DNA of 5,062 nucleotides from Candidatus Poribacteria bacterium. Its GTDB lineage: Bacteria > Abyssobacteria > SURF-5. Position 1 is the first letter of the stretch. The number at the start of each line of letters is the position of its first letter. The DNA lies in contig JACRIR010000045.1 in NCBI GenBank assembly GCA_016215705.1, positions 1-5,062 on the forward strand, read 5' to 3'. Positions 1-5,062 of this stretch are shown one piece after another. The notes under the pieces were generated by a model. The model was not told the DNA's origin. It saw only the letters and a program-made list of their open reading frames with translations, and searched no databases. The translations under genes and the position numbers were made by a program.

Positions 1-90
1 GGCAAGGCCGCAACCAAGAATAGCGGACAAATTCCCCTCTCCCCTTTGCGAAGGGGGGAAAGAGAGACTGTCCCGTAATTGTGAGTCTGA

Positions 91-110
91 GGGCGAAGCA
101 TGCTGCGCCC
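91..110. repeat. Palindrome 1 inside element A
   Basis: A 20-bp near-palindrome, self-complementary at 18 of 20 positions, begins GGGCG and ends CGCCC. It is followed directly by CTACAAG. It shares the GGGC...GCCC frame and the CTACA trailer with the palindromes at 141-162 and 3495-3514, although the central bases differ. Confidence 0.7.
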
Positions 111-140
111 CTACAAGAAATGCTGATCTTGCGGGGTATT

Positions 141-162
141 GGGGCACGGCGCGCCGTGCCCC
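141..162. repeat. Palindrome 2 inside element A
   Basis: A perfect 22-bp palindrome starts GGGGCACGG and ends CCGTGCCCC, followed by TACAG. On transcription it could fold into a very stable hairpin, though the tight centre leaves few loop bases. It is not followed by a T-run, so there is no reason to call it an intrinsic terminator. Confidence 0.85.
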
Positions 163-235
163 TACAGTAGATCCACAATTGCGGGACAGCCTCATGAGGA
201 GGGTTTTTCCAGGAGCGAAGCGAGGAGTCTTCGTT

Positions 236-301
236 TGTTGACACCGCTGTCCGAGACAATCGGTTTGGTTTTGTTGACTGCAACAACTAGCGGTGTTAGT
301 A
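236..301 (+). other. Nested inverted repeats upstream of the nucleoside hydrolase
   Basis: An outer stem pairs ACACCGCT (241-248) with AGCGGTGT (289-296) and can extend outward to about 236/301 if G-U pairs are allowed. Inside are two smaller hairpins: CCGA/TCGG (251-254 with 260-263) and TTGTTG/CAACAA (271-276 with 281-286, loop ACTG). As RNA this would be a three-way junction. As DNA, the TTGTTG-ACTG-CAACAA dyad looks like a small operator. It matches no riboswitch class I recognise: the loops are too short for the kissing loops of purine riboswitches. The function is inferred; only the pairing is seen. Confidence 0.45.
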
Positions 302-302
302 T
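274..302 (+). promoter_or_regulatory. Candidate sigma70-type promoter for the plus-strand operon
   Basis: TTGACT (274-279; 5 of 6 to the -35 consensus) is separated by exactly 17 bp from TAGTAT (297-302; 4 of 6 to the -10 consensus). Transcription would begin near 309, leaving only a few bases before the ATG at 317. This fits the absence of a Shine-Dalgarno sequence there. The -35 hexamer lies within the dyad TTGTTG-ACTG-CAACAA (271-286), where a repressor could block it. Promoter consensus in this organism is unknown, so the call is tentative. Confidence 0.4.
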
Positions 303-316
303 TATGTTTGGTCAAA

Positions 317-1300
317 ATGGCTACCCAACGAAAACACATAATAATCGATACCGACCCGGGCGTGGATGATGCGCTTGCGTTGATTCTTGCGCTCCGGTCA
401 GATGAGCTTCAGGTCGAGGCAATCACGACCGTCAACGGCAACGTGTGTCTGAGCCAGTGCACCGAGAACGCGCTACGGATACTCGAAATACTGGGATTGC
501 CGGAGCCGCCGCCCGTCGCACAGGGGGCAGACAGGCCTCTTTGCAGAGAGCCTTTATCGAGTGCTTCCATCCACGGGCGCGATGGGTTGGGAGAGATATC
601 GATTCTCAAGGACCGCAGCGGAAAGAAGAAGTATCCTTCTCCCCGATTGCATCCCACGGCGAAATATGCGCCTGAATTGATTTGCGACCTCGCGGCCAGG
701 CATCCGCGCGGGCTCACCATCGTTACGCTTGGCCCATTGACCAATATCGCGCTTGCCCTGACACTCGAGCCTGCGCTTCCGCGCTACGTCAAAGAGATAG
801 TCACTATGGGCGGCGCCTATTCGGCTCCCGGCAACGTGACACCCGCCGCCGAATTCAACTTCTTTTGCGATCCGGAGGCTGCGCAGCAGGTCATTGCGTC
901 AGGGATACCGATAACACTGGTGGGCCTCGATGTAACACGCATCGCGCGTTTGAGCCGGCATTCGCTCTTGAACGCGACAAAAAAGCGCACCAGGCTGAAC
1001 CAGTTCCTGCAGAATGCGACCGCCCATGCGATGAGCTTCTACTGCGAAAGGGAAGGCTATCACGGTTGCAGCGTGCATGATGCGCTCGCGATGATGGTTG
1101 CCATTGACTCTTCATTTGTGGGCACGAAACGCGTCCACGTCGAAGTCGAGACCGAAGGGAAATTGACGGCCGGCATGAGCGTGGCCGACCTGCGTCCTTA
1201 TTCTCGCGGCAAGGCGGGCAAGCCGAACGCCGCCGTCGCTCTCTACGTCGACCCCTCCCGCTTCGAGCACTTCCTGCTTGATCGCATCACAGACAGGTGA
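317..1300 (+). CDS. Inosine-uridine-type nucleoside hydrolase
   Basis: This 327-residue protein belongs to the Ca2+-dependent nucleoside N-ribohydrolase family, cytosolic enzymes that cleave the N-glycosidic bond of ribonucleosides to free base plus ribose for salvage or catabolism. All hallmark elements are present. The N-terminal metal-binding motif DTDPGVDDA is at residues 11-19 (D11, D13, D17, D18 correspond to D8, D10, D14, D15 of the Crithidia enzyme). Also visible are TTVNGN (37-42), IHG (85-87), GPLTNIA (139-145), AEFNFFCDPEAA (178-189, with E179 and N181), GLDVT (203-207), the catalytic/metal HD pair (H254, D255) and GKLTAGMSVADLR (281-293). Length is typical for the family. An in-frame GTG at 293 would add eight residues, but family proteins begin just before the DTDPG strand and the candidate promoter overlaps that GTG, so ATG 317 is preferred. 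Neither start has a good Shine-Dalgarno. Base preference (purine, pyrimidine or broad) cannot be read from sequence. It is first gene of the operon. Confidence 0.95.
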   Translation: MATQRKHIIIDTDPGVDDALALILALRSDELQVEAITTVNGNVCLSQCTENALRILEILGLPEPPPVAQGADRPLCREPLSSASIHGRDGLGEISILKDRSGKKKYPSPRLHPTAKYAPELICDLAARHPRGLTIVTLGPLTNIALALTLEPALPRYVKEIVTMGGAYSAPGNVTPAAEFNFFCDPEAAQQVIASGIPITLVGLDVTRIARLSRHSLLNATKKRTRLNQFLQNATAHAMSFYCEREGYHGCSVHDALAMMVAIDSSFVGTKRVHVEVETEGKLTAGMSVADLRPYSRGKAGKPNAAVALYVDPSRFEHFLLDRITDR

Positions 1301-1338
1301 AACCAATTCTTGAGAACCTATTTTGGAAGGAACGAATC

Positions 1339-1787
1339 ATGAAGCACATTGAAGAACCGGCGAGGAAGATTCCCGTCATGGAGGAGACGGATGTTTTGGT
1401 TGTGGGAAGCGGTCCGGGAGGTCTTGCGGCCGCCATCGCGGCGGCGAGAGAAGGCGTGGATACCATGCTGGTGGAGCGATGGGGCTCATTCGGCGGGAAC
1501 ATCACGCAGGCGCTTGTGGGTTCGATGGCATGGTATCGATACGAGAAAACGGTGGAAACCGGAGGAATCGGCGTCGAGTTTGAAAAGCGCGCCAAGGAGT
1601 TGGGCGCGACCATCTCGTCGGATTTGGTTCAGTATCTGGATGACGAAACGCTCAACTATGTCGCCCCGATTATGGCAGCGTCGCCGAATCCGCCGCCGTC
1701 TCTCTGAAGGACAACGTTGGGTGCAGGCAGGTTGATATCTCCAAAGTCCAAAAGGCATTGAAGAAACAAGGTGTCAGGGTTCAATGA
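1339..1787 (+). pseudogene. Remnant of an FAD-dependent oxidoreductase (internal deletion plus frameshift)
   Basis: The start is sound: ATG 1339 follows a GGAAGGA ribosome-binding site at 1325-1331. Residues 18-28 (TDVLVVGSGPGG) are the FAD-binding beta-alpha-beta GxGxxG motif, VER (45-47) supplies the ribose-binding Glu, and FGGN (51-54) with VETGGIGVEFEKR (72-84) fits the FAD_oxidored (PF12831-like) family. Similarity stops near residue 110, where members continue for some 300 residues, and the frame ends at TGA 1705-1707 after a proline-rich non-homologous stretch. In another frame, 1674-1787 encodes what looks like the true family C-terminus, with VDISKVQKALKKQGV close to the stop at 1785-1787. 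The middle of the gene is therefore missing and the join is out of frame. The product would have an FAD cradle but no substrate domain, so it is presumably inactive. It sits 38 bp after the nucleoside hydrolase and 61 bp before the amidohydrolase. An assembly error is the main alternative. Confidence 0.8.
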
Positions 1788-1848
1788 CGCCGGTGCAAAT
1801 CGATGACCAAGCCCTGACAAGGCACTACCACCATTGAGGACTCTGAGT

Positions 1849-2760
1849 ATGGCGGATTACTTTGTGGTTGACGCGCATGCGCATACGTATAAGACGGCTG
1901 AAGTCGGGATTCAGGCGCTGGGGGGAGCGGGACAGGCGGGATGCAACGGGACGCCAGAGGAGTTGATCGAAATACTACGTGAGGCGGGAATCGCGAAGGC
2001 GGTTCAGGTGAATATGACACCGATGCGCGAAATGTATAAGGCCGCAGTTGACAAGCTTTCGGAGAGCGACCGAGGGGGTGAACATCCCGAGATAATTCGG
2101 GCCATGTCCGAGCGAGTAAAGAGAAGGAATCGCTGGACGTGCGAGCTGGCAAAGGAGCACGCTGAGCTTGTTGCGTTTCCGTCGGTTGACCCATTGATGG
2201 GGCCGGAAGAGATGGCGGCCGAGGTCGAGGCATGCGCGAAGGGACTCGGCGCAAAGGGTATCAAGCTGCATCCGGCGGAAGGGCATTATTTCCCGCGCGA
2301 TGAAAGATTGTGGCCGGTTTATGCCAAGGCGCAAGAGTTGGGGTTGCCGATAATCTCGCATGGCGGCGTGTTCATGATGACTGACTATGAAGGGGGCGCC
2401 TCATACACGAAGCCCGAGAATTTCGAGCCTGTGCTCGAGAGCTTCCCGAAACTGAAGCTCGTGATCGCGCATTTGGGACACGGGTACTGGGAGGATTCGA
2501 TCTCTTTGGCGAAGAAGTATCCCAATGTGTATTTCGATACGTCCGCCATCATTTGCGGCGTCGAGCATTTGGAGCAGTTGTCCGAGGCAGAGACTGTCGA
2601 GCTTATTCGCAAGTTGCGAGTCGATCATGTGATGTTCGGGTCGGATTATCCGTGGTTCAGTCCGGCGGCGAGCTTGAAACGCTTTCTGCAGCTTCCGTTT
2701 ACACCGAGCGAGAAAGAGAAGATACTGGGCGGAAACGCGAAGAGAATACTTGGCATTTAA
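1849..2760 (+). CDS. Amidohydrolase-superfamily metal-dependent hydrolase (amidohydrolase 2, COG2159 type)
   Basis: This 303-residue protein should be a soluble TIM-barrel enzyme. The metal site is complete: DAHAH (H10, H12) on strand 1, GIKLHP (137-142, K139 and H141) mid-barrel, SHGG (H171), IAHLGHG (206-212, H208 and H211), and FGSDYPW (263-269) carrying the catalytic Asp D266. NAKRILGI at the C-terminus is the usual family ending (Amidohydro_2, PF04909). Members include hydrolases and non-oxidative decarboxylases of the aminocarboxymuconate-semialdehyde decarboxylase group, so the reaction here is unknown. Length is typical. ATG 1849 is preferred over an in-frame TTG at 1834 because GAGG at 1836-1839 gives a properly spaced ribosome-binding site and the protein then begins just before the first barrel strand. 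It is last in the operon. The following 109 bp (2761-2869) separate it from the convergent membrane-protein gene and contain no convincing terminator. Confidence 0.92.
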   Translation: MADYFVVDAHAHTYKTAEVGIQALGGAGQAGCNGTPEELIEILREAGIAKAVQVNMTPMREMYKAAVDKLSESDRGGEHPEIIRAMSERVKRRNRWTCELAKEHAELVAFPSVDPLMGPEEMAAEVEACAKGLGAKGIKLHPAEGHYFPRDERLWPVYAKAQELGLPIISHGGVFMMTDYEGGASYTKPENFEPVLESFPKLKLVIAHLGHGYWEDSISLAKKYPNVYFDTSAIICGVEHLEQLSEAETVELIRKLRVDHVMFGSDYPWFSPAASLKRFLQLPFTPSEKEKILGGNAKRILGI

Positions 2761-2869
2761 GACGTGTATGTTACCGCAAAGGCGGGAAGGTCGCGAAGGG
2801 AAACCTTTCCGGAGCACGAATCTTACGAACACTATTGTCCAAAATAGGAATCTGAGCCGCTGACGCGCC

Positions 2870-3292
2870 TCAAGTCATGCTTTCGATGAATCGCTCCAAC
2901 AGAGCGTTGGTTTTGCGTCTGGCGGCGAGAATGAGCCGCGTGTTCTCCTCGATGTTTCGCAGAATGTTGAGTCGTTTCCAGACCGTAATGAGCATGGTTG
3001 TGGAGAAGATGCCGCATCCGGCGAGCCCGAGCAGCCATAAGGGCCTGATGGGGTCGTGGGCCGGTCCGCCGAGCACGGCCAACAGAATGATAGCGACGGT
3101 GATTGAACCTACCGCGCAGGAGGCAAGAAGCGTAATCAACGAGACGAGCATTGGGGGGCGGATGATTTTCGGTCTCGGCTCGTCTTTCTCTGTTGCGAGA
3201 CGAACCAAACGCCGCTTCTTCTTTTTCTGATCCTCTTCTTTTAGATAAACCTGAATGTCGTTGAGTAATTTGTCCATATAGTCGTTGTTCAT
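2870..3292 (-). CDS. Hypothetical small two-helix membrane protein
   Basis: I do not recognise this 140-residue protein. Its N-terminal third (1-46) is hydrophilic, with a basic run at 23-29 (KKKKRRL). Two hydrophobic segments follow, about 48-75 and 84-105, joined by a short loop with HDPIRP, and then an amphipathic C-terminal helix (106-140: WKRLNILRNIEENTRL and beyond) that could form a coiled coil. The basic N-terminus suggests a cytoplasmic location for both ends, with the loop outside. ATG 3292 is chosen for an AGGAG about 11 bases upstream. An in-frame ATG at 3331 would add 13 residues, and a longer frame back to 3433 would run through repeat element B and is unlikely. A TTATAT sequence just before the gene could be a -10 box, but no convincing -35 accompanies it. 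The coding signal is supported by the coherent membrane topology rather than by homology. It converges with the amidohydrolase and lies codirectionally downstream of dinB, from which the repeat spacer separates it. Confidence 0.7.
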   Translation of the reverse strand: MNNDYMDKLLNDIQVYLKEEDQKKKKRRLVRLATEKDEPRPKIIRPPMLVSLITLLASCAVGSITVAIILLAVLGGPAHDPIRPLWLLGLAGCGIFSTTMLITVWKRLNILRNIEENTRLILAARRKTNALLERFIESMT

Positions 3293-3360
3293 TTGTCGTC
3301 GTGCTCCTTCTTGCTTCTGGTGTCTACCCATATAACTTCTCGTTGCATTGCTAATCGGAA

Positions 3361-3524
3361 GCCCCCTCCCCCTTTTGTAAAGAGTGGAAAGAGAGGCTGT
3401 CCCGCAATTCTGTAGGCGCGAATTTGGTCGCAACCGAGATGTGAAAAGAGTCCGAAATATTGTGTGAATAAATTGGCGCCCACAGGATTTCGGCGGGCGA
3501 CTCGCGAGTCGCCCCTACAGAATT
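3361..3524. repeat. Repeat element B, related to element A
   Basis: The segment 3362-3411 repeats the left end of element A: a C-rich then G-rich stretch, then GGAAAGAGAGGCTGTCCCG (3386-3404), then CAATT. The 10-bp inverted arms AATTCTGTAG (3406-3415) and CTACAGAATT (3515-3524) bracket about 100 bp, and the palindrome at 3495-3514 lies against the right arm. The interior (3416-3494) is otherwise unremarkable. The element fills most of the 287-bp spacer between the membrane protein and dinB, and no coding sequence is supported there. Confidence 0.65.
3495..3514. repeat. Palindrome in element B
   Basis: A perfect 20-bp palindrome runs GGGCGACTCG then CGAGTCGCCC, followed by CTACAG. The outer GGGC/GCCC pairs and the CTACA trailer match the palindromes at 91-110 and 141-162, whereas the inner bases are different but still fully self-complementary. 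Confidence 0.85.
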
Positions 3525-3541
3525 CAAGCTATATACGGAAT

Positions 3542-3562
3542 TCCGGCAGATACGTCGCCGGA
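3542..3562 (-). terminator. Weak hairpin downstream of dinB
   Basis: TCCGGC (3542-3547) pairs with GCCGGA (3557-3562) across a 9-base loop, 18 bp beyond the dinB stop on the minus strand. A 10-bp palindrome CGGAATTCCG (3536-3545) overlaps it. No T-run follows in the direction of dinB transcription, so intrinsic termination is doubtful. It is listed because it is the only structure in a suitable place. Confidence 0.2.
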
Positions 3563-3579
3563 TTTATGAAGACGCGCGC

Positions 3580-4893
3580 TCAGGAGCGAGGCTTCGTTTT
3601 GGCCGTTTCGTCTCTCTTGTTCCCTTTCGCCTTCCGCCTGCGGCCCTTTGCCGTTTCGCCTTCCGCCTCTTTCTCATGTGTGGGAGAAAATGGGGACAGA
3701 CCCTTGTCATAGGGTCTGTCCCTATTTTCTCCCGTGGGTCGCAGACCCGAGGCGCGCTCGATTGCGGTATCTCCGAATTTTCTCCTGATGTTGTCGATAG
3801 TTCTCATAGCCTTGCAGTTCTTTTCGCCCTGCTCGGAGAACAGATGCAATTGCCCGGAGGGATGTTCGAGGCTTGAGGCGACGACGCCCAGTAGCCTGAC
3901 TTTCTGTCCGCCAAGCGGGACAGCCCGGAACAGGTTCCATGCGACGGAGAGAATCTGGTCATCCGAACTCACGGGATCGAGCAGGGTTCGTTCGCGATGC
4001 ATCGTCGTAAAGTCGGCCAATCGGACTTTTATGCCGACCGTTTTGCTGACTAGGCCTTCCTCTCTCAATCTGGCGCCCACTCGATCTGATAGGCGTGCGA
4101 ATGTCCGGCGCAGTTCATCGTTATTATCTATATCCACGTCAAAGGTCGTTTCCTGGCTTATGGATTTCGCTTCGGCCTCGGCGATCACAGGGTTGTCGTC
4201 AATGCCGCGGGAGAGTTCATAAAGGTGTTCCCCTTGTTTGCCGAAAAGCCGCCTGAGATGCTCGCGTGACATTTCCGCAAGCCGGCCTACTGTCTCGATT
4301 CCGTGGTCTCCCAGTCTACGCGCCATGACTTTGCCGACGCCATAGACTTTGTAAACGGGGAGGTCCCGGAGGAAATCGGCCTCGCCGCCAGGTTGTATGA
4401 CGACAAAGCCGTCCGGCTTTCGGTAGTCGGACGCTATTTTTGCCAGAAACTTGTTAGGCGCAATCCCGACGGAAGCCGTGAGATTGAGCTCGTTGCGCAC
4501 GCGGTCTTTGATTTCGCGCCCGATTTTTTCTGCGTCACCAAAGAGCGCTATGCTCGCGGTAACATCGAGAAAAGCCTCATCCAGCGAGAGCGGCTCAACG
4601 AGGGGAGTATAGCTGCAAAGGATGGAGCGAAGTTGCCTGGATACGGCCTCGTATTTTTCCATGTCGACCGGCAGGAACACGCCTTCGGGACAGAGGGCAC
4701 GCGCCTTCTTGAGAGGCATAGCGCTATGAACGCCGTACCGTCGCGCTTCATAAGAAGCGGCTGAAACAACTCCTCTTTGCCCGCCGACACCTCCGACGAT
4801 AACCGGCTTGCCCGCGAGCGACGGGTTATCGCGCTGCTCGATGGACGCATAGAAAGCATCCATATCAACGTGGATAATGGTTCGCGTCGTCAT
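3580..4893 (-). CDS. dinB: DNA polymerase IV (Y-family translesion polymerase)
   Basis: This 437-residue protein is a Y-family polymerase that copies past damaged bases with low fidelity. The catalytic carboxylates are intact: D10 in HVDMDAFYA (8-16) and D105/E106 in SLDEAF (103-108). Y15 occupies the steric-gate position that excludes ribonucleotides. SVGIAPNKFLAKIASDYRKP (141-160) is the conserved palm segment, and VYGVGKVMARRLGDHGI (183-199) is the helix-hairpin-helix thumb. The little-finger domain follows from about 240, and QLHLF (348-352) is a beta-clamp binding motif. The usual family end is reached near residue 382 (KFGDTAIERAS). Residues 383-437 are an extra basic, low-complexity tail, with 388-404 encoded by a palindromic repeat and ETAK occurring twice. 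ATG 4893 is chosen because the protein then starts at the first conserved strand, although no Shine-Dalgarno is visible. The frame could extend to 5046, but that part overlaps the promoter and lacks family features. No clear LexA box is seen. Confidence 0.96.
   Translation of the reverse strand: MTTRTIIHVDMDAFYASIEQRDNPSLAGKPVIVGGVGGQRGVVSAASYEARRYGVHSAMPLKKARALCPEGVFLPVDMEKYEAVSRQLRSILCSYTPLVEPLSLDEAFLDVTASIALFGDAEKIGREIKDRVRNELNLTASVGIAPNKFLAKIASDYRKPDGFVVIQPGGEADFLRDLPVYKVYGVGKVMARRLGDHGIETVGRLAEMSREHLRRLFGKQGEHLYELSRGIDDNPVIAEAEAKSISQETTFDVDIDNNDELRRTFARLSDRVGARLREEGLVSKTVGIKVRLADFTTMHRERTLLDPVSSDDQILSVAWNLFRAVPLGGQKVRLLGVVASSLEHPSGQLHLFSEQGEKNCKAMRTIDNIRRKFGDTAIERASGLRPTGENRDRPYDKGLSPFSPTHEKEAEGETAKGRRRKAKGNKRDETAKTKPRS
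3625..3668. repeat. Short direct repeat in the dinB 3' extension
   Basis: The 15-mer TTTCGCCTTCCGCCT occurs at 3625-3639 and again at 3654-3668, a period of 29 bp. Because 29 is not a multiple of three, the two copies are read in different frames of dinB. A looser third relative (GGCCGTTTCGTC, 3601-3612) lies nearby. This low-complexity sequence encodes the Lys/Arg/Glu-rich end of the polymerase. Confidence 0.75.
3682..3733. repeat. REP-like 52-bp palindrome inside the dinB 3' end
   Basis: Two 22-bp arms (3682-3703 and 3712-3733) are complementary at 21 of 22 positions around an 8-base loop (TTGTCATA). The arms run from GGGAGAAAAT at the outer end to GGGACAGACCC at the loop. Such long, nearly exact stems normally lie between genes. 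REP-like elements of this general type are associated in other bacteria with RAYT transposases, and I infer kinship from form only. It lies within the reading frame and encodes residues 388-404 of DinB. Confidence 0.85.
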
Positions 4894-5017
4894 TGTATGA
4901 TTTTTGAAACAGACGCCACTCGAGGCTTGACGCTGTGAGCGGGGAGGATGCAGTTTTGTTGCCGGAGAACCGACCAAAAACCTAAATCTACTCCCACACC
5001 GAAAAGAGGGCGAAATA

Positions 5018-5046
5018 ATTCTAGCCCAACGATTGGCGCTTGTCAA
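5018..5046 (-). promoter_or_regulatory. Sigma70-type promoter of dinB
   Basis: On the minus strand TTGACA (5046-5041, perfect -35) is followed after exactly 17 bp by TAGAAT (5023-5018, 5 of 6 to the -10 consensus). Transcription would begin near 5011, giving a leader of about 118 bases before ATG 4893. The leader (4894-5011) has no ribosome-binding site close to the ATG and no conserved element I recognise. Positions 5047-5062 show nothing more. Confidence 0.65.
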
Positions 5047-5062
5047 TCAGACATAGGTGAAC

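Follow-up and report, generated by a model that had tools for sequence, protein, structure and literature searches.

In-frame dispersed palindromic repeats at the C-terminal end of DinB in a Candidatus Poribacteria genome

The Rickettsia palindromic elements (RPEs; Ogata et al. 2000, 2002) are described, in the passages of PMC10969869, PMC6649704 and PMC3733652 that deal with them, as in-frame palindromic insertions in genes. Intragenic REPs occur in several bacterial groups, and replication and repair genes are frequent hosts, error-prone DnaE2 (dnaE2) among them (PMC3733652). Coding palindromes have also been found in the mitochondrial genes of Nematomorpha, as inverted repeats translated within conserved proteins (PMC6649704).

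Here we describe a palindrome that is read in frame at the end of dinB in Candidatus Poribacteria bacterium. The gene lies in a stretch of 5,062 nucleotides, referred to here as the window, which corresponds to positions 1-5062 of one contig in a 5.47-Mb genome of 270 contigs. Like the RPEs, the element is a dispersed palindrome that stands in frame in unrelated conserved genes, adds peptide to their products and is read in the same frame at several sites. Both RPE-like traits that we tested, copies in frame in several unrelated conserved genes and orthologues free of the insert, were found. It differs from the RPEs in that its host lineage is unrelated, the element itself is a different and shorter one (~44-54 nt compared with ~150 bp for the first-reported RPEs) and the genome is large. 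The likeness to intragenic REPs, which carry GTAG or CGTC tags (PMC3733652), is that of short, high-copy palindromes located partly inside ORFs, and the REP trait of a short, high-copy and mostly extragenic palindrome was observed here as well. However, this palindrome has neither tag, no RAYT gene was found near it, and dinB is not among the host genes named in the text of PMC3733652. The inverted repeats of Nematomorpha are likewise translated as part of conserved proteins, but those are perfect repeats made of native conserved residues, whereas here a dispersed family supplies added peptide. By analogy, the element appears to resemble an RPE or an intragenic REP in the way it works, and we claim no membership in either named family. 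The kind of event is already known; the lineage is new.

The end of DinB

The dinB gene (DNA polymerase IV, 437 aa) occupies positions 3580-4893 of the minus strand, with its ATG start at 4893, inside a longer listed TTG frame, and its stop codon at 3580-3582. Its identity is supported by the Pfam domains IMS and IMS_C and by a match to the NCBIfam DNA polymerase IV model above the curated cut-off. A sequence-only reading of the window had proposed that the polymerase reaches its family end near residue 382 and runs on for about 55 residues of repeat DNA, its own stop having been lost or displaced. We found that 55 residues do follow residue 382. In 39 aligned DinB relatives that share the C-terminal helix ending near this residue, the median number of residues after the helix is 11, and 38 of the 39 have 25 or fewer. 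The outlier, a DinB from a Desulfotignum metagenome-assembled genome, extends 105 residues beyond the family end with a segment that looks acylphosphatase-like by eye, a possible gene fusion.

The nearest DinB relative found, in genome G001, is 70% identical up to residue 382 and ends 10 residues later (SSIEKKEQQHDE, then a stop), with neither the palindrome nor the tail. Because the frame aligns unshifted to this protein up to residue 382, a sequencing error upstream, which the sequence-only reading had named as a possible source of the open frame, is unlikely. Public genomes yielded no closer DinB (53% identity at most; records very near the source genome may be missing there). Nor was a same-genus genome lacking the insertion found, so that the empty dinB site itself was not seen and the comparison rests on a relative of just 70% identity. 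The order dinB, small membrane protein (2870-3291, minus strand), amidohydrolase is common to the window and G001. The distance from dinB to the membrane-protein gene is 18 nt in G001 and ~290 nt in the window, where the conserved DinB body ends ~450 nt before that gene starts. In an AlphaFold2 model the body of DinB is confident and residues 385-437 have pLDDT values below 50; the tail is thus predicted to be disordered, and is probably a passive appendage.

The palindrome lies at 3682-3733 of the minus strand (52 bp) and encodes DinB residues 387-404 (GENRDRPYDKGLSPFSPT) in the gene's own frame, with no stop codon across it. Its arms, 3682-3704 and 3711-3733, are 23 nt each and form 22 of 23 possible pairs (96% complementary) around a 6-nt loop, a slightly longer stem than the 21 of 22 pairs over residues 388-404 first noticed from the letters. 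With two mismatches allowed, the longest stem has 22 pairs, whereas 25 dinucleotide-shuffled versions of the window gave 9-13, and as RNA the palindrome folds at -41.4 kcal/mol (z -9.6). A CCCAC direct repeat on the coding strand flanks it (3680-3738, minus strand) at a spacing of exactly 54 nt, which equals the length of the insertion in BioD described below. A 54-nt inserted unit in dinB is therefore conceivable, although it rests on a 5-bp repeat that could be a chance match. No Rfam family matched anywhere in the window.

The remaining tail sequence, at 3583-3681 of the minus strand, belongs to a second family, a dispersed AGGCGAAAGG-type repeat that is read here as THEKEAEGETAKGRRRKAKGNKRDETAKTKPRS. 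The stretch 3606-3676 recurs with ~83% identity over 60-81 nt at three other places (C50, C190 and C102). Shorter copies of this type occur elsewhere, with C139, C265 and C70 among the matches, and two of them come immediately after what appears to be another gene's stop codon. Within the stretch, two 18-nt direct repeats (3622-3639 and 3651-3668, minus strand) are 94% identical and ETAK appears twice in the translation, as the sequence-only reading had described. Its account of a displaced stop and of repeat DNA turned coding agrees with these data, in which two dispersed repeat families make up the tail and the closest relative has neither.

A palindrome family inside several genes

The palindrome core, GGGACAGACCC, occurs exactly 29 times in the source genome, compared with none for the reversed control. 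A covariance model of the family gave 61 strand-matches there, or ~34 sites, at E <=0.05, part of them belonging to a related palindrome, GGGGACACGATG...CATCGTGTCCCC. Among 20 other genomes, the two from the same taxonomic family as the source had a few matches and one of the remaining 18 had a single weak match. A genome search for copies both intergenic and in frame had been proposed, and it returned both kinds: several copies lie outside any long ORF, and others are read within genes. Plasmid sequences yielded no copies, the aligned copies carry no GTAG or CGTC tag at the palindrome end, and a literature search with the core sequence returned, among the matches listed, no paper on a dispersed bacterial repeat.

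Several proteins of the source genome, DinB among them, carry the palindrome family in frame. In BioD, identified by an equivalog match, residues 53-70 form an insert of exactly 18 aa whose flanks are contiguous in the relative G002 (44932|44933); among seven aligned BioD proteins only that of the source genome has it. A NapH-like Fer4_5 protein carries DRENRDRPYAAGLSLFSPV where both relatives, G001 and G002, have DKKP. BioA contains CEKNRNRPHSSEEKNGVCSCFSC in a loop, a site without a palindrome in G001. Insert-free orthologues are thus available for DinB (G001), BioD (G002), the NapH-like protein (G001 and G002) and BioA (G001). The bioA gene of G002 (C7, ~46104-46202) carries its own palindromic insert in the loop that is occupied in the BioA of the source genome, which points either to two hits on this loop or to an old insert that has since diverged. 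In addition, in a multi-pass membrane protein (C176, ~20110-20205) the related palindrome, arranged as tandem units and read in frame, makes up an insert of ~60 aa with EKWGHDAT repeated that is missing from both relatives. The in-frame count excludes weaker palindrome-like copies, which occur in DUF58, DUF4129, permease, solute-binding and other ORFs.

DinB, BioD, BioA and the NapH-like protein are all read through the element in one common frame (ENRDRP...GLSLFS). Of the three frames of the consensus palindrome, two are open and the third contains a TAG; with two frames open, the agreement of four sites is at most suggestive of a frame preference.

As to a mobilising enzyme, genes for Y1-type transposases (Y1_Tnp) are present in the source genome. 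No significant match to the palindrome model was found within ~1.5 kb of the Y1_Tnp loci of this genome (which is ~92% complete), G001 and G002 (best E 0.066), and a repeat-associated transposase (RAYT) adjoining the palindrome was looked for with no candidate found. At C225 (47-1027) a Y1-type transposase gene lies between inverted repeats (GGTCAGGTCTTGAA...TTCAAGACCTGACC), with no palindrome close by.

The repeat island downstream of dinB

Two more dispersed repeats occupy the intergenic part of the island. One, of ~95 nt (3388-3495), has ~20 genomic copies at 73-81% identity. The other (3495-3523) is a GC-rich palindrome adjoining GTAG (CTGTAGGGGCGACTCGCGAGTCGCCC on the minus strand), with many genome matches. 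GC-rich palindromes beside GTAG or CTAC are seen in the window at 86-170 and 3490-3523; they are like GTAG-tagged REPs and coexist with the untagged palindrome.

Directly upstream of the membrane-protein gene, the minus-strand stretch 3294-3318 (AGAAGCAAGAAGGAGCACGACGA) may be a leftover of the native dinB tail that was stranded there. Its alignment to the dinB tail of G001 scores 30, compared with a shuffle mean of ~20, and 9-14 of 1000 shuffles reach this score. Because a 22-nt piece of it recurs at an unrelated place (C181), we regard the similarity as suggestive. Elsewhere in the window, 1297-1707 of the plus strand holds the start of a gene for an FAD-dependent oxidoreductase, cut short at 136 aa, which is a pseudogene or a frame-shifted gene.

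Origin and meaning of the tail

The repeat identity, the in-frame reading, the nearest DinB with neither tail nor palindrome and the sister copies in bioD, bioA and the napH-like gene are all observed. With these in hand, we consider it very likely that dispersed repeats invaded the 3' end of dinB, in the manner of an RPE or an intragenic REP, and that the host protein survived with a disordered peptide. A REP-like palindromic element would have entered the end of dinB without shifting its frame, beside the second dispersed repeat, displacing the native last codons and stop, so that the protein would now end at a stop within the repeat island. Neither the element nor the repeat beside it has a stop in this frame, and DinB would thereby have gained ~50 residues. 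Open in two of three frames and with a net insertion of ~54 nt (18 codons), the element may be kept at sites that tolerate extra residues, such as a C-terminus or surface loops. We infer that the cell produces the tail and that DinB is still active, and likewise the repeats' order of arrival; the element may have been moved in trans by some transposase.

The tail might instead be an adapted part of DinB, with a Lys/Arg stretch that increases DNA affinity close to the clamp-binding QLHLF motif and a hairpin that protects the message or slows ribosomes, as the sequence-only reading had suggested. The tail does have 16 K/R residues compared with 9 D/E, it lies ~30 residues past QLHLF, and the RNA hairpin is very stable. 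However, at its other, unrelated sites the AGGCGAAAGG-type repeat is K/R-rich in all three frames, so the basic tail gives no sign of selection for DNA binding. With predicted disorder and a tailless relative in G001 added to this, the affinity and clamp role finds no support. The proposed role at the 3' end of the message fares no better, with sister hairpins in the middle of bioD and bioA, and we judge adaptation to be highly improbable. Those mid-gene copies also weigh against the idea that the palindrome serves dinB chiefly as a transcription terminator or a structure at the 3' end of its mRNA, with the full-length tail protein being rare. A terminator-like pattern was indeed scored on the minus strand at 3722-3693, and REPs lie mostly downstream of coding regions (PMC3733652). 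Yet this is a single site where shuffles lead one to expect 0.7, its T run is poor (CATTTTCTCC), and the frame stays open from the conserved end to the palindrome, so that a terminated message would be stopless; we hold this explanation to be very unlikely. The least probable reading is an assembly chimera or misassembly at the repeat, by which the island would not be in dinB in the living organism. Assemblers can be misled by repeats and the genome is in 270 contigs, but the gene order across the island is the same in an independent genome, and the flanks that match on either side of the insert in BioD show that such insertions are real here.

Invasion of the dinB end by dispersed repeats would be a clear case of repeat DNA turned into protein sequence. 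It would also make this a genome into which a single palindrome family has been inserted four or more times, with orthologues free of the insert to set beside the host genes. It is possible, though on balance we doubt it, that the short palindromes of this lineage are specialised for survival inside genes, through insertions of ~54 nt, one preferred stop-free frame and repeated entry at gene ends and at loops that tolerate it (one BioA loop shared by two genera), which would let them keep supplying new protein segments and tails outside Rickettsiales. For annotators, the case is a warning to take such tails for repeat peptides and not for domains. A further lineage, with a large genome, would join the few in which in-frame palindrome insertion has been documented.
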